Shown here: piece by piece, positions 1,956 to 9,953 of the stretch
Layout: each line of letters begins with the position of its first letter
Position numbering within the stretch: the first letter of the stretch is position 1
Source of the DNA: Prochlorococcus sp. AG-311-J23
GTDB taxonomy: Bacteria > Cyanobacteriota > Cyanobacteriia > PCC-6307 > Cyanobiaceae
Reading direction: 5' to 3'
NCBI GenBank assembly: GCA_003284375.1
Contig: QBVL01000002.1
Span: 1 to 32,820 of the forward strand
DNA: 32,820 nt
Translations under genes and position numbers: made by a program
Notes under the pieces: generated by a model
What the model saw: only the letters and a program-made list of their open reading frames with translations
The model's database searches: none
Told to the model about the DNA's origin: nothing

Positions 1956-3029
1956 TTATGAGAATCCTTTAGGAGCCTGCTTGTTACGAACCTTGAAATC
2001 CCAAACAGTAATACCTCCATTGGCATTTACTGCAGCCAAGGCACAGTCATCAGGCCGCCAAGCGATTTGGCTGACAAGATCTCCTGCAAATGCACCTCCA
2101 ACAGGATCACCCTGACCATCTTTTTGGAGAAACCAGGAAAAGACTGAACCATCTCTGGCACCTGAGGCTAAGAGCATCCCGCTATGTGAGAAAGCGAGAC
2201 AAGAAATAGGTTCAGTATGAAGAATTAATTCCCCTGGAACAGTCCCTTCAGGACCATCTCCTTGAAAACTCCAAACAGTTACTCGATCACTACCCCCGGT
2301 AGCAAGAACTGTTCCAGTTTGATCAAAAGCTAGGTGGCTTGGTTTGCCAGGATATCCTGTCATCTCTGAATCTTGATCAGTTGAGCGACGCCAGAAATGA
2401 ACAGAATTATCCTGACTACCGCATGCCACTATGTCTCCATCAGGGCTAAGCACCATAGATACTAGTGAGCCTCTCCACTCCAACTTTTGATTGACCTTGT
2501 TGCTAACTACATCGAAAAAAGTTACCTGCCCATAGCATGCTGTTGCTAATTCATTTGAATTAGACCAAGCAATCGCGCTGACAGTACTGGGATGTTCTTC
2601 TGACCTCCAGTGTTCTTGACCTTTTTCATTAAACACATAGACGTATTTGGTGAAGACCACTGCTAAAAACTTACCGTCTGGAGACCACTTGATGTGCTCA
2701 ACCCACCCTTTCCCAAGTTCTAAAGTGTTAGTTGATTTACCCTCTTTGCTTTCCCATATCAATAACTTTCCGTCTTGGCCTGCAGTTGCAAAAGTATTTC
2801 CGTCTGGATGAATAGACATTGCGAGTAAGCCACCTTTGTGGATTTCCTTTGTTTGCCAAATGAGATTTCCGGACTTCCCTTCAAATGAGTAAAGCCCACC
2901 AGCAACGTCACCGACTAAAAAGGCTTTACCTTTTAGGGCCCATCCACAGACAATTACGTAGTCGTCAACTTGAGCAGACCAGCCCTTGTGAAGCATCCCT
3001 TTTGGACTGAATTCTTCTAGACCAGGCAC
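1956..3029 (-). CDS. WD40-repeat beta-propeller protein linked to the CobW GTPase
   Basis: The 357-residue protein consists almost entirely of WD40 units. About seven or eight repeats of roughly 40 residues can be traced, for example HKGGLLAMSIHPDG...LLIWES, HTEPISCLAFSHSG...VFSWF and VSQIAWRPDD...ITVWDF. It therefore folds as a propeller, usually a protein-interaction platform. No signal peptide or enzyme domain is seen. Its start lies inside the end of the CobW gene with a 13-base overlap, implying translational coupling. This places it as the last gene of the znuA-led zinc operon. Known WD40 proteins have no intrinsic metal role, so I infer that it scaffolds the client proteins of the metallochaperone. 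The function is otherwise unproven. Confidence 0.85.
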   Translation of the reverse strand: MPGLEEFSPKGMLHKGWSAQVDDYVIVCGWALKGKAFLVGDVAGGLYSFEGKSGNLIWQTKEIHKGGLLAMSIHPDGNTFATAGQDGKLLIWESKEGKSTNTLELGKGWVEHIKWSPDGKFLAVVFTKYVYVFNEKGQEHWRSEEHPSTVSAIAWSNSNELATACYGQVTFFDVVSNKVNQKLEWRGSLVSMVLSPDGDIVACGSQDNSVHFWRRSTDQDSEMTGYPGKPSHLAFDQTGTVLATGGSDRVTVWSFQGDGPEGTVPGELILHTEPISCLAFSHSGMLLASGARDGSVFSWFLQKDGQGDPVGGAFAGDLVSQIAWRPDDCALAAVNANGGITVWDFKVRNKQAPKGFS

Positions 3030-4399
3030 TTATCAAACTCCCTAATCATTTCTTTTTCATCAAGATTTCGACCGATAAATACAAGTTGGTTGCGGCGAGG
3101 TTCACTCCCCCATTCTTTATCAGGTTGAGCAGTGAAGAGCATATGTACTCCTTGAAACACTATTCTCTTAGACTCTCCCGCATAACTAATGAATCCCTTA
3201 GTCCGAAATATATCCACACCTTTTTCTGATAGGAGTCGACTTAACCATCTATTGAGTTTTTCTGGATCTACATCACCTACTCGCTCGATAGCGAATGAAC
3301 CCACTTCGTCGTCGTGTTCGTGCTCGGCTACCCACGTCCGCTCAGCTATTGGAGGAATTACAGAGATGTTCTGATCATTATTTATCTCGCCTGTAGGTGC
3401 ATTATTTACTTTAGTTAATTTCATATTAAACTCTTCTGCTGTGTGTTGAGTGAATAGACCTATATCCCTTTTCTTATCAACATCTATGAAGAAGGACTTA
3501 GTCCCTTCAGATTGAAGTTGAAGGCTCACATGCTTGCCGACTGGAACTGTCTCACCTGGATTCATAGGTTGTTCTTGTTCTGCATAGAGTCTCACGCATG
3601 ATTCAGCACCTGTGTTGAGAGCAGTCTCGTCTTTACCTTGGTCTGATAACAGGACGAGAGACATTGTGGGGTCTGGACCTTCTTCGAGCGTAAGTTCGTG
3701 TCGACCTTCTTCAAGTGAAAACACACCTGTCCACTCAAATGGATATTCTGGTTCAAGAAAAGTTGGACGACGCTGAAGTACTTGATCTAGATCAAAAGCA
3801 CTTAGATTGAGAACAGTATCAATTGAGACGTCTGCTTGTTTACTGCGTATTACTCGAGCCATACGATTCATATCGCGTAGACGTGACTCTAAGTTGTCGA
3901 GTGATTCATCTGAAACTAGATCAGTTTTATTTAAAACAAGGACATCAGCGAAGGCAACTTGCTCCGAACTTTCATCACTTCGCCCAAGTTGTTGTTCTAT
4001 GTGGGCTGCGTCCACAAGTGTGACTATGCCATCGAGTGAAAACTCATCACGGATTTCATCGTCCATGAAGAATGTCTGAGCTACAGGGCCAGGATCAGCA
4101 AGGCCAGTAGTCTCAACTAATACATAGTCAAATTTATCTCGCCTCTTCATGAGGTTTCCTAGTACACGAATTAAATCTCCACGTACGGTGCAGCAGATGC
4201 AACCATTAGACATCTCGAAAACCTCTTCATCAGCATTGATTACTAATCCTTGATCAATGCCAACTTCACCATATTCATTCTCAATGACAGCTATTTTTTT
4301 ACCGTGCTCTTCGCTCAGGATTCTATTGAGTAAAGTTGTTTTGCCAGATCCTAGAAACCCAGTCAGTATTGTTACTGGTACTTTTTGCTTGTTGCTCAT
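3017..4399 (-). CDS. COG0523 (CobW/ZNG1-type) GTPase metallochaperone with inserted domain
   Basis: This 460-residue P-loop GTPase shows Walker A GFLGSGKT (residues 14-21), the metal-binding CxCC motif as CICC (67-70), ETTGLADP (96-103) and the guanine-specificity motif NKTD (157-160). The CobW C-terminal domain covers about 355-460. COG0523 proteins hand metal to client enzymes, and zinc-regulated members act in zinc shortage. Between the GTPase and C-terminal domains, residues about 220-350 hold an extra domain (FEWTGVFSL ... LFTQHTAEEF) that resembles the insertion in the nearby ZnuA. The usual long poly-His linker is reduced to EHEHDDE (359-365). The start ATG is 9 bases after the preceding unknown gene, consistent with one operon under the Zur-box promoter. 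The zinc assignment comes from context; cobalt is less likely. Confidence 0.9.
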   Translation of the reverse strand: MSNKQKVPVTILTGFLGSGKTTLLNRILSEEHGKKIAVIENEYGEVGIDQGLVINADEEVFEMSNGCICCTVRGDLIRVLGNLMKRRDKFDYVLVETTGLADPGPVAQTFFMDDEIRDEFSLDGIVTLVDAAHIEQQLGRSDESSEQVAFADVLVLNKTDLVSDESLDNLESRLRDMNRMARVIRSKQADVSIDTVLNLSAFDLDQVLQRRPTFLEPEYPFEWTGVFSLEEGRHELTLEEGPDPTMSLVLLSDQGKDETALNTGAESCVRLYAEQEQPMNPGETVPVGKHVSLQLQSEGTKSFFIDVDKKRDIGLFTQHTAEEFNMKLTKVNNAPTGEINNDQNISVIPPIAERTWVAEHEHDDEVGSFAIERVGDVDPEKLNRWLSRLLSEKGVDIFRTKGFISYAGESKRIVFQGVHMLFTAQPDKEWGSEPRRNQLVFIGRNLDEKEMIREFDKCLV

Positions 4400-4408
4400 T
4401 TTCTTGAA

Positions 4409-4726
4409 TTAACGACGTGAACAATTAGAGCTGTCAAGAGAAATATCAGTTAACCAATTCTCTTGGATACCCAATAGTTCAAGTGATTTTAATTCAAAGT
4501 CATCCAGCTCATAATAATTGTATGGAACTTTTACTCTTAATGTATGTTTTCCATTCTCTTTTTTAAGCGAATGATTTGAAAATTGAAGTTCTTTTAGATT
4601 GTCATAGAAATCAGTTGATATAGTCAGTTTTAAGATTTTATCTTTATCCCATGGTCGTTTATCCATGAAACCTGCCTGGTCTTCCCAGTGTTGTTTGTAA
4701 ACTTTATATCCTTTGGTTGGAAACAA
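4409..4726 (-). CDS. Hypothetical protein in the zinc operon (TTG start, 105 aa)
   Basis: A 105-codon frame sits between znuA and the CobW gene on the same strand. No ATG precedes the first recognisable residues, so the longest form starts at TTG (MFPTKGYKVYKQHW...). An internal ATG at residue 21 (MDKRPWDKDK) is an alternative start. The body is charged, with a likely beta-rich core (KILKLTISTDFYDNL, KHTLRVKVPYNYYELD) and a C-terminal NCSRR. There is no signal peptide, membrane helix or obvious metal motif beyond one His and one Cys near the ends. I do not recognise the family. A strong hairpin just upstream overlaps its best Shine-Dalgarno-like sequence. By position it is likely co-expressed with zinc uptake and zinc-allocation genes. 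Confidence 0.6.
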   Translation of the reverse strand: MFPTKGYKVYKQHWEDQAGFMDKRPWDKDKILKLTISTDFYDNLKELQFSNHSLKKENGKHTLRVKVPYNYYELDDFELKSLELLGIQENWLTDISLDSSNCSRR

Positions 4727-4734
4727 TTTTTTTT

Positions 4735-4771
4735 CAATCCTGTGAACATTTTATAAATGTAGACAGGATTG
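4735..4771. promoter_or_regulatory. Strong intergenic hairpin between znuA and the unknown gene
   Basis: CAATCCTGT (4735-4743) pairs exactly with ACAGGATTG (4763-4771). An inner perfect stem ACATTT/AAATGT (4746-4751 with 4755-4760) closes a three-base loop, and only a two-by-two mismatch separates the stems. Two further T-A pairs extend the outer stem. On the minus strand it is followed by A residues rather than T, so it is not a classic terminator. The AGGA closest to the downstream TTG start lies in its 3' arm, which suggests control of translation or RNA processing within the znuA operon. Confidence 0.6.
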
Positions 4772-4783
4772 AACTTGTAAAAA

Positions 4784-6280
4784 TTAAGGGTTAATTAAAG
4801 AATTCCATTTCCCTTCAAGTTCATTACCCTCTTTCTCATCACATTCTCCACCAAGTGAATCAACAATTGTGCATGTGTTGTGGACTGCTACTGAAATAGT
4901 ATTTCCTGTTGGCATTAAACCATCAGAATATATTTGATTTGATGCTACAGGGGTGGAAGTTTGTCTGCTTAGGTTTTTCAATAACTTTGAAGTAGGCTTT
5001 TGCTCAGCGAATAACACTTTCACATTGTCTTCTTTGAGCTCGGTTATTACTTTTGCAATAGTCTGAGGTCGAAGACTGGAGGAATCACCAAGAACATCTA
5101 ATAAGCTCATGACTTTCAAACCAAATGCATCTCCGTAATATTCCATCGCTTTGTGCTTAGAAACAATCGTCCTTTGATTAGAGGGGATTGTAGCAACTTG
5201 TTTTTGAGTCCATTTATCTAAATCTTCCAAAATGGAATTCACAGATTGAGTTCTTTCTTTTAAAACTTTTTTAGTTTCTCTATCAAATAAGGAGATCTTC
5301 TTGTTGATATTTTTGGAAATTACATCTCCCATTTTGATGATGTTATGTGGATCATGCCAGATATGAGGATCTAATCCTCCATGATCATGGTGATGATGAT
5401 CTCCTTCATCTGGTACTTGGGCAATCGGTTCAATATCGTCTCCTGCAACATCTTTAAAGAAATGTTCATCGGCTTCAAACTCAAAAGGCATATGCTCAGT
5501 AAAGAAAGCGTATTTACCAGCTTTTTTGATTTCTACAGTAAATGTTGTGATGTCTTTCTTTTCATTAAATGTAAGAACGTAGGCTTTTTCTTGTGCAACA
5601 AGTTTGTCATTATTGCGCTTAACTTCTGAATTTTTGGATCCTAATAATTCTTTAGCAAGCTCTTCTGATGCTTCGATATCACCAGAGTTGAGGATAACCA
5701 TTTTCATTGCAGGATCTGCATAGTCTCCGTTGACTTTGGCAAAAGACCATTTGTAGGTTCCTGCTGAAAGGTCAAAAACACCAGCCCATTCAAAAGCTCC
5801 TTCTCCATGGCTATCGCCATGATCATCGTGGTCATCATGATCGTCATGTTTAGCAGCTGAATTATCGTCGTGGTCATCATGATCATCGTGGTCGTCATGA
5901 TCGTCTATTTCTATTGCACTTACGCCAACAACAACAGTTAAGGGATTATCTAACCATTTTTTCATTGCAGGGATCATCTCTGAACCAAGAGTAAATACTT
6001 GCTTCGCACTCTTTAGTGTTTGAGCTTGCTTTGGAGTGATCTTGACATCATGAACATCCTGGTTTCTGTCAATTAAGCAGGTTACGGGCGTTGAGGGTGG
6101 TGCAATTGCAGAGACAACATCACAAACCAATGGCTCTACAGCAACAATTGATTTTGTATTTGCCTGCGCTGTCTGGTTGATTCCAGAAAATAAAAATGCT
6201 CCAACAACAAGAGAACTTTTAAGAACTGTCTTACTGATTATGGGGTTATTCTTTTTTGACTGATTTAAAAAATTCAACAT
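4784..6280 (-). CDS. znuA: Zinc ABC transporter substrate-binding protein with His-rich insertion
   Basis: This 498-residue periplasmic zinc-binding protein is far longer than the usual 300 or so. A signal peptide ends near TAQA (residue 40). Likely zinc ligands are H77 (QDVHDVK), H306 or H309 in LDPHIWHDP, and H376 (VSKHKAM), with an acidic ligand towards the C terminus. The normal His loop is replaced by a giant insertion. It comprises Asp/His repeats (about 127-159), an extra domain (163-290, starting FEWAGVFDL and including FFTEHMPFEF) and a second His cluster (295-300). It delivers Zn2+ to ZnuB/ZnuC. Its promoter region is shared divergently with znuC and contains a Zur box. The genes downstream on this strand appear co-transcribed. 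The insertion's homology with the nearby CobW protein is discussed in the findings. Confidence 0.95.
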   Translation of the reverse strand: MLNFLNQSKKNNPIISKTVLKSSLVVGAFLFSGINQTAQANTKSIVAVEPLVCDVVSAIAPPSTPVTCLIDRNQDVHDVKITPKQAQTLKSAKQVFTLGSEMIPAMKKWLDNPLTVVVGVSAIEIDDHDDHDDHDDHDDNSAAKHDDHDDHDDHGDSHGEGAFEWAGVFDLSAGTYKWSFAKVNGDYADPAMKMVILNSGDIEASEELAKELLGSKNSEVKRNNDKLVAQEKAYVLTFNEKKDITTFTVEIKKAGKYAFFTEHMPFEFEADEHFFKDVAGDDIEPIAQVPDEGDHHHHDHGGLDPHIWHDPHNIIKMGDVISKNINKKISLFDRETKKVLKERTQSVNSILEDLDKWTQKQVATIPSNQRTIVSKHKAMEYYGDAFGLKVMSLLDVLGDSSSLRPQTIAKVITELKEDNVKVLFAEQKPTSKLLKNLSRQTSTPVASNQIYSDGLMPTGNTISVAVHNTCTIVDSLGGECDEKEGNELEGKWNSLINP

Positions 6281-6304: not shown

Positions 6305-6319
6305 CGATAATCATTTTCA
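6305..6319. promoter_or_regulatory. Zur box (zinc-uptake repressor operator)
   Basis: CGATAATCATTTTCA, with reverse complement TGAAAATGATTATCG, is a near-perfect 7-1-7 palindrome. It matches 13 of 15 positions of the cyanobacterial Zur consensus TGATAATNATTATCA. It lies in the 89-base divergent znuA/znuC spacer, where one operator could repress both directions when zinc is plentiful. A zur-like gene lies about 0.8 kb away. Confidence 0.8.
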
Positions 6320-6369: not shown

Positions 6370-7065
6370 ATGCCTAGCTTGATTGCTGAAAATTTGACAT
6401 ATTCTTATTCAAGTAAAATTAAACCTGCTTTAAGCAACGTTTCTCTAAATCTTGAACAAGGTACTTTGACAGCTCTTGTTGGTCCAAATGGAGCTGGTAA
6501 GTCCACATTATTAAGCCTGCTGCAAGGGAGTAGTAATCCGGATCAAGGAGAAATTACTGTTGACGGAAAACCATTGAGACATAATCGATCTCAAGTGGCT
6601 TTGATGCCTCAGAGGGGGAAGCTGAATTGGAATTTTCCAATTACTGTTGAAGGATTAGTTTCTTTAGGTCGAGTCAATCATTCGAAATCGACTTGTTGTG
6701 AATTAGAAGCGGCTCTTCAGCGTGTTGGAATATCTCATTTAGCAAAAAGGCGACTTGATGCTTTATCTGGTGGTCAGCAACAAAGAGCATTACTCGCGAA
6801 AACCTTGATGAATCCTGCCAAAATATTTCTACTTGATGAACCTTGTTCCGCATTTGATCCCCCCGCAAAGGAAGACTTCTTATTAATTATCCGTCAATTA
6901 GCTGATTCTGGATTGACAGTCTTCGTCAGTAGTCACGATTGGGGCACATCATTAAATGCTTATGACAAGGTTGTTGTTCTAGATAAGATTATTTTGGCTT
7001 CTGGTAACCCTGAAGAGGTGCAGGAAAAACTTAGTTCAATTAACTATCTGAGATGGAAAATATAG
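6370..7065 (+). CDS. znuC: Zinc ABC transporter ATP-binding protein
   Basis: This 231-residue ABC ATPase carries Walker A GPNGAGKST (residues 38-46), a Q-loop region around VALMPQ, the ABC signature LSGGQQQR (132-139), Walker B FLLDEP (153-158) and a switch histidine in SSHDWG. It powers Zn2+ import with ZnuB and ZnuA at the cytoplasmic membrane. It is transcribed away from znuA across the shared Zur-box spacer. The zur gene lies downstream in the opposite direction with 26 bases between the stop codons, and znuB follows beyond it. Substrate assignment rests on the neighbours: a manganese transporter would have similar motifs, but the His-rich ZnuA and adjacent Zur favour zinc. Confidence 0.93.
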   Translation: MPSLIAENLTYSYSSKIKPALSNVSLNLEQGTLTALVGPNGAGKSTLLSLLQGSSNPDQGEITVDGKPLRHNRSQVALMPQRGKLNWNFPITVEGLVSLGRVNHSKSTCCELEAALQRVGISHLAKRRLDALSGGQQQRALLAKTLMNPAKIFLLDEPCSAFDPPAKEDFLLIIRQLADSGLTVFVSSHDWGTSLNAYDKVVVLDKIILASGNPEEVQEKLSSINYLRWKI

Positions 7066-7091: not shown

Positions 7092-7529
7092 TCAAGCATT
7101 CATTTCTTGCGAACAATTTTGGCAGAGGCCAAAGTATTCAAGAGTATGAAACAACAGTTCAAATCTTTTAGAGGCTTTCTGGGGTACATGCATTGTTTTT
7201 ACTGGGCATCCCTGCAATCGAGTGGTTTCTCCGCAGCTTACGCAAGTTAAATGATGAATATCTCTTTCAACTGGGGCATAAAGGACCTCTCCGTTAGGTA
7301 GGTGTCTCGAGCGAATTAAGCCTTGCTTTACTAACGCTTGCAAGTTCCTGTATACAGTCGTCAGACCCATTGCCTTTTCACCATTATGAAATTTTCTATG
7401 CAGTTCTTGTCCACTCAACTCATCAGTACATCTCTTGAGTTCGTTGAGAAGTTGTTGCTGTCTCTTCGTGATGTCAGGCTTGCTTTTATTCATTAGCAAG
7501 ATCTCAATTTGATCTTTCTTCCTGACCAT
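7092..7529 (-). CDS. zur: Fur-family zinc uptake regulator
   Basis: This 145-residue Fur-family repressor has an N-terminal winged helix with a recognition helix around GLTTVYRNLQAL (residues 55-66). The C-terminal dimerisation domain shows the family pattern ERDIHHLTCVSCG, with paired structural zinc cysteines C96/C99 and C136/C139 (CQNC). Regulatory zinc would be sensed at His-rich positions such as H92-H93. The location inside the znu cluster and the Zur box nearby indicate Zur rather than an iron Fur. Fur-family proteins bind DNA when metal-loaded and repress uptake genes. The start at 7529 leaves only 17 bases to znuB. A second ATG at residue 13 would shorten it to 133 residues and has a better purine-rich upstream sequence. 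The gene is antisense to any znuC-znuB transcript. Confidence 0.88.
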   Translation of the reverse strand: MVRKKDQIEILLMNKSKPDITKRQQQLLNELKRCTDELSGQELHRKFHNGEKAMGLTTVYRNLQALVKQGLIRSRHLPNGEVLYAPVERDIHHLTCVSCGETTRLQGCPVKTMHVPQKASKRFELLFHTLEYFGLCQNCSQEMNA

Positions 7530-7546: not shown

Positions 7547-8332
7547 ATGTCTTTTTTTAATACAAGTTGGTGGATAATTCCTCTTCTAATAACTTCCTTT
7601 TCAGGAGTGCTTTGCCCTGCGATGGGATCTGTATTGATAACTCATAAAAGGCTTCTTCAAGTCAATTTAATTTCACACTGTGTTTTACCAGGACTTGCCT
7701 TGGCTATGGCTCTTGGGATTGATCCATCTATTGGAGGTGTCTTAAGCGGATTAGTGGGAGCTATTGCTGCAGAAAGTTTGACAAATAAAAAAAATCAAAA
7801 TTATGAAGCTGTAATGAATACAATTCTTGCTGGTTCGATGGGGCTTGGTGTTTTGCTTATACCTCTACTTGGAATCAGGATTGATTTGGAAGCTGTTTTG
7901 TTTGGTGATTTATTAACTGCAAATTTGAGTGATTTATTAAGAACTCTGATTGCGTTCTCGGCATTCATTTGCCTAATGCTATTTGGTTACGACAAGCTTG
8001 TTCATATTGGCTTAGACCCAGAAGGAGCTGCTTCAAGTGGAGTTAATGTTTCGTTTTTGAACTTAGCCCTAGGTTTCACCACTGCACTTGTCATTGTGAG
8101 CTCAATGTCAGCAGTCGGGGTAATCCTTGTGATTGCGTTACTTTCAACCCCAACTTTGTTGGGGTTGCAGAAAGCTAGATCTCTATGGATTGCCATGCTT
8201 CGATCATCCATATTTGGATTAGTTTTATCACTCGTAGGTTTTTCACTAGCTATGATTATGAATTTGCCTCCAGGCCCTCTTATAAGCGTTCTGTGTGTCA
8301 TTTCATTGATTTTGCTTCCCAAGAATAATTAG
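7547..8332 (+). CDS. znuB: Zinc ABC transporter membrane permease
   Basis: The 261-residue, very hydrophobic protein has about seven to eight membrane helices and the ABC-3 (ZnuB/MntB) family pattern. Typical features are the N-terminal CPAMGSVLITHKRLLQVNLI segment, ISHCVLPGLALA, and the conserved SMSAVGVILVIALLSTPTLL helix near residues 180-200. It forms the channel for Zn2+ released by ZnuA and driven by ZnuC. Its ATG lies only 17 bases from the start of the divergent zur gene, and no room exists there for a separate promoter. It is therefore probably co-transcribed with znuC through the zur locus or driven from within zur. Confidence 0.92.
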   Translation: MSFFNTSWWIIPLLITSFSGVLCPAMGSVLITHKRLLQVNLISHCVLPGLALAMALGIDPSIGGVLSGLVGAIAAESLTNKKNQNYEAVMNTILAGSMGLGVLLIPLLGIRIDLEAVLFGDLLTANLSDLLRTLIAFSAFICLMLFGYDKLVHIGLDPEGAASSGVNVSFLNLALGFTTALVIVSSMSAVGVILVIALLSTPTLLGLQKARSLWIAMLRSSIFGLVLSLVGFSLAMIMNLPPGPLISVLCVISLILLPKNN

Positions 8333-9239: not shown

Positions 9240-9683
9240 TTAGTTAGGTTTGATATGGATTGCACAAGGCATCCATAATTTACCCATCTTATGGACTCCA
9301 GCGCATCCGAGCTTTTTGGCTTCGATCTCTGCCTGAGATTTAGTTGGATATGCATAAATATTTTTTGAAGACGAAGAATTAGAAAGATTAATTGACTCAT
9401 GAATAGCATTGTTTTCTGGACTCCATACCTTTAGCCCCATAGTTGTTATTCCTGCAGAAAATATTCCCATTCCGACTATTGAGGCATTAACCACTCCCAT
9501 GGCTACAGCGCCAATAGAAACGACACCCATGGGAACAATTCCAATGCTAATAATACCCATGGGAACAATTCCAATAGAAATGAATCCAAGTGGTGCTATT
9601 CCAAATGCAATTTTTTTTGGTTTGCTTCCACAATGCGAAGGCGCTTCAGAATTGTTCTGATTGGTGCTATTTGAAGTTGTCAT
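9240..9683 (-). CDS. DUF3721 protein with decapeptide repeats
   Basis: This 147-residue protein has a Cys-containing polar N terminus (SHCGSKPKK), then five near-perfect ten-residue repeats at residues 31-80. The unit resembles PMGIISIGIV, with a Gly and Met every ten residues, and is hydrophobic enough to form a repetitive beta coil or a membrane-inserted stretch. A DUF3721 domain (about 110-143) closes the protein with the family's Cys-Ala-Gly-x-His-x-Met-Gly and WMPC motifs (C127, C140). Function is unknown. It follows a lipoprotein bearing the same DUF3721 domain with a 12-base gap, so the two are probably one operon. No cleavable signal peptide is evident; the repeats might anchor it to the membrane. 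Confidence 0.75.
   Translation of the reverse strand: MTTSNSTNQNNSEAPSHCGSKPKKIAFGIAPLGFISIGIVPMGIISIGIVPMGVVSIGAVAMGVVNASIVGMGIFSAGITTMGLKVWSPENNAIHESINLSNSSSSKNIYAYPTKSQAEIEAKKLGCAGVHKMGKLWMPCAIHIKPN
9525..9575. repeat. Tandem 30-bp DNA repeat in the decapeptide gene
   Basis: A 21-base identical stretch beginning ACCCATGGGAAC occurs at 9525-9545 and again at 9555-9575, a period of 30 bases that encodes the ten-residue protein repeat. The identity at DNA level suggests recent duplication of repeat units, so copy number may vary among strains. Confidence 0.8.
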
Positions 9684-9695
9684 TATCTAAAAATA

Positions 9696-9953
9696 TCAGT
9701 GGTGATGATGATTTCCCTCATGTGATTCATCTTTTCCTGCCTCTTCATGGTCAGTATGGCTTTGACAAGGCATCCATTTATCACCCATCCTATGAGCTCC
9801 GGTGCAATTAAAATCCTTGGCTGCTCTCTCTGCTTCTGTTTTGGTAGCAAATATTGAAAGGGTTTTACTTTCCTTAGAATTATCTGAGCATCCAATTAGG
9901 TAAAAAGATAAGGAAAGAACCAAAGTCGAAAGGATTGGTTTGAGATTATTCAC
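9696..9953 (-). CDS. DUF3721 lipoprotein with His-rich tail
   Basis: The 85-residue product starts at GTG with a lipoprotein signal peptide, lipobox LIGC at residues 19-22. After cleavage the mature protein is lipid-anchored through C22. A DUF3721 domain spans about residues 33-65 (CTGAHRMGDKWMPC, cysteines 50 and 63). The C-terminal tail is rich in His, Asp and Glu and ends in four histidines, which points to metal binding, probably Zn, Cu or Ni, outside the cytoplasmic membrane. It is the first gene of a two-gene unit with the decapeptide-repeat DUF3721 protein and sits near the zinc-uptake cluster. The GTG start is supported by a purine-rich AGAGAA just upstream. Metal specificity is inference. 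Confidence 0.75.
   Translation of the reverse strand: MNNLKPILSTLVLSLSFYLIGCSDNSKESKTLSIFATKTEAERAAKDFNCTGAHRMGDKWMPCQSHTDHEEAGKDESHEGNHHHH

Follow-up and report, generated by a model that had tools for sequence, protein, structure and literature searches.

A homologous domain inserted in ZnuA and in a COG0523 GTPase of a Prochlorococcus zinc-uptake cluster, and its possible role in metal capture and hand-over

The window, that is, the whole 32,820-nucleotide stretch of Prochlorococcus sp. AG-311-J23 analysed here (contig QBVL01000002.1), contains what looks like a complete zinc-uptake cluster, in which two proteins, the substrate-binding protein ZnuA of a zinc ATP-binding cassette (ABC) transporter and a CobW-type GTPase of family COG0523, each carry an inserted domain of the same kind. 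The znuA gene (4784–6280, minus strand) encodes a protein of 498 amino acids (aa) that is matched by Pfam PF01297 with 164.2 bits against a cut-off of 29, with the inserted domain at residues 160–277 (5450–5803, minus strand). Its family is the ground for taking ZnuA to be exported; no segment of the protein was picked out by a crude hydrophobicity scan. The COG0523 gene (3017–4399, minus strand) encodes a 460-aa GTPase with matches to PF02492 (207.7 bits, residues 8–184) and PF07683 (89 bits, residues 367–459) and a CxCC metal motif (GCICC in the translation), and the inserted domain, here in its cytosolic form, occupies residues 218–328 (3416–3748, minus strand). Between the two genes lies a conserved 105-aa protein (4409–4726, minus strand), for which Pfam and NCBIfam scans returned no match and which shows 54–99% identity in the loci of relatives. 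The first 13 bases of a WD40-repeat protein gene (1956–3029, minus strand) are also the last 13 of the COG0523 gene. On the other side, a znuC-like ABC ATPase gene (6370–7065, plus strand) diverges from znuA and is followed by a Fur-family regulator gene (7092–7529, minus strand; Pfam FUR, 59.4 bits), probably encoding Zur to judge from its position, and by a znuB-like permease gene (7547–8332, plus strand), with znuC and znuB named by sequence and position.

Judged by sequence comparison, residues ~160–277 of ZnuA and ~218–328 of the COG0523 GTPase are homologous. BLASTP of the whole proteins gave an E-value of 6e-6 over ZnuA 160–330 and CobW 218–387, and Smith–Waterman alignment of the two segments scored 76, with shuffled sequences giving a mean of 28.7 (standard deviation 4.9) and a best score of 55 in 2000. 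A profile–profile comparison of 14 ZnuA-type with 11 CobW-type rows yielded a probability of 96.2% and an E-value of 2.5e-9 over 102 columns. Chance resemblance or convergence of motifs was ruled out by this profile–profile score together with intermediates linking the two forms. The first-pass annotation had claimed that the segments are alike over most of their length and had named profile comparison as one way of refuting this; all three methods gave significant results, and the likeness was borne out. The motifs and numbers quoted there are also correct, with F163 opening FEWAGVF in ZnuA and F221 opening FEWTGVF in CobW, and with FFTEHMPFEF giving exactly H263/E267 and LFTQHTAEEF exactly H319/E323. 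A search of the window's own genome (1.43 Mb, 77% complete) found the ZnuA and COG0523 copies as the only matches at E<=1.

Ordinary Pfam cores were found on both sides of each insertion, with nothing credible inside. Residues 4–214 and 221–311 of E. coli YjiA (1nij) align to CobW 7–214 and 363–453, and since YjiA thus aligns on both sides of the domain, the insertion takes the place of the 6-residue YjiA linker. The His-rich loading loop of ZnuA is present (HDDHDDHDDH... and DHHHHDHGG), and the domain lies in it between two His/Asp-rich arms: one before it (HDDHDDHDDH..., approximately residues 121–159; 5804–5920, minus strand) and one after it (EGDHHHHDHGG, approximately residues 291–302; 5375–5410, minus strand), with the larger ZnuA Pfam stretch beginning at residue 280. 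The ZrgA profile (PF10986) reached 17.1 bits here, below its cut-off of 27.4, and covered the His tract at 121–163 only, the domain alone being unmatched. Thus, the placement originally proposed, in the His-rich zinc-loading loop of ZnuA and between the GTPase and C-terminal domains of CobW, agrees with both the YjiA alignment and Pfam.

In a diverse 46-row alignment of the domain, the invariant columns were E, W, G, D, H, E, and F; E, W, and G belonged to the search pattern that had fetched 43 of the 46 rows, and the other four (D, H, the second E, and F) lay outside it. Four polar residues recur, namely E164/D189/H263/E267 in ZnuA and the corresponding E222/D243/H319/E323 in the COG0523 GTPase. 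When conservation was scored by host class, with rows that included matches found by profile or tblastn and not by the search pattern, all nine scored positions were kept in 45/45 ZnuA rows (close relatives, with some genomes represented twice and one doubtful double copy counted in), 2/2 stand-alone rows, and the single membrane-protein row. Among the COG0523 rows (n=173), the letter at the site was the expected one in 155/162 for D, 144/145 for H, and 139/139 for the last E, with the remaining rows (11, 28, and 34, respectively) gapped there, partly as truncated loci and partly as members of a degenerate group. The conserved H and E had been put forward as the first candidate ligands; their special status is borne out by this conservation and is shared by two further acidic residues (E164/E222 and D189/D243), all four being candidate metal ligands.

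Structure models of the ZnuA form (predicted local distance difference test, 89.1; predicted template modelling score, 0.82) and the COG0523 form (92.8 and 0.84) both predict a beta-sandwich with three strands, a helix, and then more strands. Structure models had been the other means of refutation named at the outset; the order of strands and helix is identical in the two, which are not independent because the alignments behind them hold identical rows, and so do not amount to an independent test of the fold. The solved structures closest in fold are beta-sandwiches of the GOLD, carbohydrate-binding, and similar kinds; the GOLD domain of SEC14-like proteins shares 4% identity with the inserted domain in a match below the level of trust. 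When the 46 members were scanned singly, the best Pfam family matched 3/46 (DUF7055, best E 0.018) and the best NCBIfam family 2/46 (best E 0.034), which we take as chance, and the PDB sequence families gave no credible match to the domain. No ZinT profile came up among the matches, whether of the two domains in the window and of one relative or of the 46 members. A literature search found no description of the domain in titles, abstract beginnings, or passages, a prior mention being possible, and the passages available from four articles (PMC10957091, PMC8786288, PMC9337993, PMC10642216) do not describe it. Overall, this is a real and widespread domain for which no curated Pfam or NCBIfam model was found.

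The search for further carriers went beyond the two copies first noticed, and the kinds of protein now known to carry the domain number at least four: COG0523 GTPases, ZnuA, stand-alone proteins, and a membrane protein. Haloarchaeal ZnuA proteins (L082, L086, L087) bear it in the same His-rich loop, and a verrucomicrobial locus has a domain-bearing ZnuA, identified by Pfam, side by side with the COG0523 form, as in the window. One ZnuA (L027) contains two intact, diverged copies in tandem; an apparent double copy in another locus (L013) spans a run of unread letters and was not accepted as a real duplication. Two stand-alone haloarchaeal proteins (L083, L088) consist of hardly more than the domain with His-rich tracts on both sides; the N-termini of both look lipoprotein-like by eye, with the crude hydrophobicity scan flagging a segment in L083 only. 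A third record, from Halosolutus and annotated as hypothetical, matches these two at 70% over the domain. The Natrinema stand-alone gene (L088, 3875–4426) lies directly after a urease operon (ureG-D-E-F), a possible link to nickel. In an Alicyclobacillus membrane protein (L081), the domain sits between hydrophobic segments and is flanked on each side by a short tract that contains His, and the gene adjoins cation-transporter and metal-regulator genes; this protein had no Pfam or NCBIfam match, and its family is therefore left unnamed.

The distribution of the domain is widespread but patchy. Among 151 genomes of the same family as the window, 30 had the ZnuA form and 38 the COG0523 form, with all of the 30 carrying both; the family tables tally 36 genomes (ZnuA search) and 38 genomes (COG0523 search) with any match. 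The COG0523 form occurs alone in 8 of these genomes, 3 of them with a listed completeness of 90% or more (G021, G101, G112), and by this and the 30/30 overlap the COG0523 form is more widely retained. Of 386 genomes of the phylum, 31 matched. Profile sampling elsewhere, in which the centre genome was chosen for having the domain and counts among the positives, gave 14/145 in Verrucomicrobiota, 1/249 in Pseudomonadota (the centre genome alone), 2/151 in the phylum of a Thaumarchaeota locus, 11/181 in that of a Ktedonobacter locus (Chloroflexota), and 12/179 in that of an Acidobacteriales locus. A tblastn search of 72,556 plasmid records returned 11 matches, 7 of them haloarchaeal, of which 9 were examined in detail. 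A pattern scan of public genome contigs gave at least 594 stretches, with at least 544 confirmed relatives, and the best 80 loci of these were retained; their sources are a single archaeon and bacteria of many phyla, and of the 81 copies in them 80 belong to COG0523 proteins and 1 to ZnuA, which says little about the frequency of host classes because the loci were picked by likeness to a COG0523 query. Viral contigs gave 5 pattern matches and no relative.

The two forms appear, from a tree of the domain, to be separate old lineages. The 75-row tree was reduced by identity from 188 rows, with copies shorter than about 95 model positions omitted and nearly all of the degenerate copies thereby lost, and in it the exported copies (13 from ZnuA, 2 stand-alone) are split by a 100/92 branch from the 59 COG0523 copies, on whose side the membrane-protein copy also falls, in a midpoint-rooted tree of few columns whose bootstrap had not settled. 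Recent copying from cobW to znuA within the lineage was ruled out by this branch. A 22-row tree of ZnuA cores stripped of the domain, from which twelve Poribacteria rows, two picocyanobacterial rows, and ZnuA fragments cut off at the ends of loci were left out, rejected a single clade of domain-bearing ZnuA (p-AU 8.1e-5, approximately unbiased test). This speaks against a single origin of such proteins, though with reduced weight because the tree contains long branches. Since the ZnuA cores do not follow the domain tree, the exported domain was probably gained, lost, or exchanged more than once. A COG0523 domain from the Chloroflexota sample (L207) groups with the picocyanobacterial ones (100/96), possibly by gene transfer or contamination.

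Natural variation in the COG0523 linker relates the domain to His-rich sequence. The Verrucomicrobiota sample includes 11 COG0523 proteins (L190–L200) in which a His-rich insertion fills the loop where the conserved D should be, the FTxHxxxEF end is altered, and FEW is mostly kept; a twelfth degenerate protein (L189) has lost the tetrad except for the last E and has a His tract after the domain. Other verrucomicrobial copies, e.g., both of those at L128, are intact. Between the start of the domain and the C-terminal domain, His residues number 14–36 in the 12 degenerate proteins, compared with a median of 6 and never more than 9 in 119 intact ones, with 27 proteins of unparsable boundaries left out of this count. 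A stretch of at least 7 His in 30 aa, a threshold chosen after the counts were known, occurs in 0/130 intact proteins (maximum 6), 12/12 degenerate ones, and 10/27 COG0523 proteins without the domain (Fisher p 4.5e-9 for intact versus domain-less). Thus, an intact tetrad and a His-rich linker were shown never to occur together in COG0523 among the proteins examined.

Elsewhere in the window, a possible Zur box lies upstream of znuA (6305–6319, plus strand) with 2 mismatches to the consensus; the window has 7 such matches against 4.5 expected, and 19 of 100 shuffles scored equally high, so the box is not significant window-wide. Two adjoining small proteins (9240–9683 and 9696–9953, minus strand) match DUF3721 near their C-termini, the first having GLTT repeats and the second a terminal His tail.

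Given the settings in which it is found, the polar residues that it conserves, and the His-rich loops that can replace it, the domain is, on balance, probably a portable module for the capture and hand-over of a divalent metal, most likely zinc. It is best read as a substitute for His-rich loops or as a partner to them. By inference, the four residues come together in the folded domain, their ligand is a metal, this metal is zinc, and it is passed on. In such a mechanism, the Glu-Asp-His-Glu set of a small one-helix beta-sandwich would form a metal site; in ZnuA, the domain within the His-rich loading loop would hold metal near the binding cleft, and in COG0523, the domain between the CxCC-bearing GTPase and the C-terminal domain would do the job of the His-rich linker that related GTPases may have at this position. 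The first suggestion had been sensing or capture; capture fits better, as nothing seen points to sensing. Several observations weigh against a metal module. In the window's ZnuA, the domain accompanies the His-rich arms rather than replacing them, and most ZnuA proteins do without it, with none among the 26 listed ZnuA homologues of the domain-COG0523 loci. The annotated neighbours of the stand-alone L083 are not metal genes. Of the domain-less COG0523 proteins, 17/27 are not His-rich, and a comparison of the His counts of all 27 with those of the intact group gave no difference (Mann–Whitney p 0.78). All 12 degenerate cases come from one sampled phylum, and since related rows were also counted separately, they represent few evolutionary events and the p-values overstate.

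An alternative starts from the genomic company of the COG0523 form, counted in 84 domain-COG0523 loci (the best 80 of the pattern scan plus L078, L079, L084, and L085) as lower bounds because some loci end early. A WD40 homologue was present in at least 74/84, with 73 of these genes lying downstream in the same orientation. A ZnuA-core homologue in at least 26/84 and a Fur-family homologue in at least 12/84 make up a zinc-related company that speaks for the metal reading. Prokaryotic COG0523 subfamily 5 had already been reported to cluster with genes for WD40-repeat proteins and znuABC, as in the gene order of the window, and eukaryotic COG0523 proteins belong to the same subfamily; the inserted domain goes unmentioned in the passages available from that account (Haas et al., 2009; PMC2770081). 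The domain could accordingly be a protein-docking module, its COG0523 copy holding the WD40 partner or a client and its ZnuA copy docking the permease or another partner, with the conserved residues being structural or part of an interface, and the separate lineage of the cytosolic form would suit this. Docking nevertheless seems unlikely: four annotated haloarchaeal ZnuA or stand-alone loci have no WD40-annotated gene (some neighbours being hypothetical) and yet keep the residues, and the replacement by His-rich sequence is better explained by metal.

The metal could also be other than zinc (nickel, cobalt, manganese, iron, or calcium), or could depend on the host, which we hold to be quite improbable. 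E/D/H/E is a common ligand set for Fe, Mn, and Ca, which counts against zinc, and the stand-alone copy behind the urease operon and the Alicyclobacillus copy in a membrane protein of no assigned substrate point the same way, against the recurrence of ZnuA-type transporter and Fur-family genes as neighbours. Least probable of all, and in our view very improbable, is a spacer, a stability element, or a jelly roll for some other ligand (e.g., a metallophore or glycan) with no metal site, for which the kinds of nearest solved fold speak. Metal capture and hand-over thus remains the favoured function. More tentatively, the domain may represent an unnamed metal-binding family across Bacteria and Archaea, plugged into the metal-transit loops of unrelated proteins on either side of the membrane, namely an importer, a chaperone GTPase, a membrane protein, and a lipoprotein. 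Were this so, the domain would serve generally as a folded substitute for His-rich tracts in the catching and passing on of zinc, and a large class of COG0523 chaperones would have in it the metal-entry site that is missing from their description. To our knowledge, the delivery of metal to these chaperones is an open question and their linker has been little studied; a linker domain in common with a zinc importer brings to this question four named residues and natural His-swapped variants. For marine picocyanobacteria, whose habitat is very poor in zinc, the domain would be a testable addition to zinc uptake.

Compared with known systems, the window GTPase resembles COG0523 subfamily 5 (CobW/ZNG1-type G3E GTPases) in its CxCC motif, CobW_C domain, and WD40 and znuABC neighbours, but differs in its extra linker domain of ~110 aa, where the solved homologue YjiA has 6 residues. 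Likewise, the window ZnuA has the PF01297 core and His-rich loop of its family, whereas its loop holds a folded domain (two in L027) of which the 26 listed homologues have none. In AdcA, too, a zinc substrate-binding protein is fused to a folded domain, the metal-binding ZinT; unlike in the present case, the AdcA domain is C-terminal, and no ZinT model matches the inserted domain. With respect to the His-rich loops and linkers of ZnuA and of ZNG2-type COG0523 proteins, the positions are equal and the job is probably equal, with a conserved domain predicted to fold here in place of a His tract.

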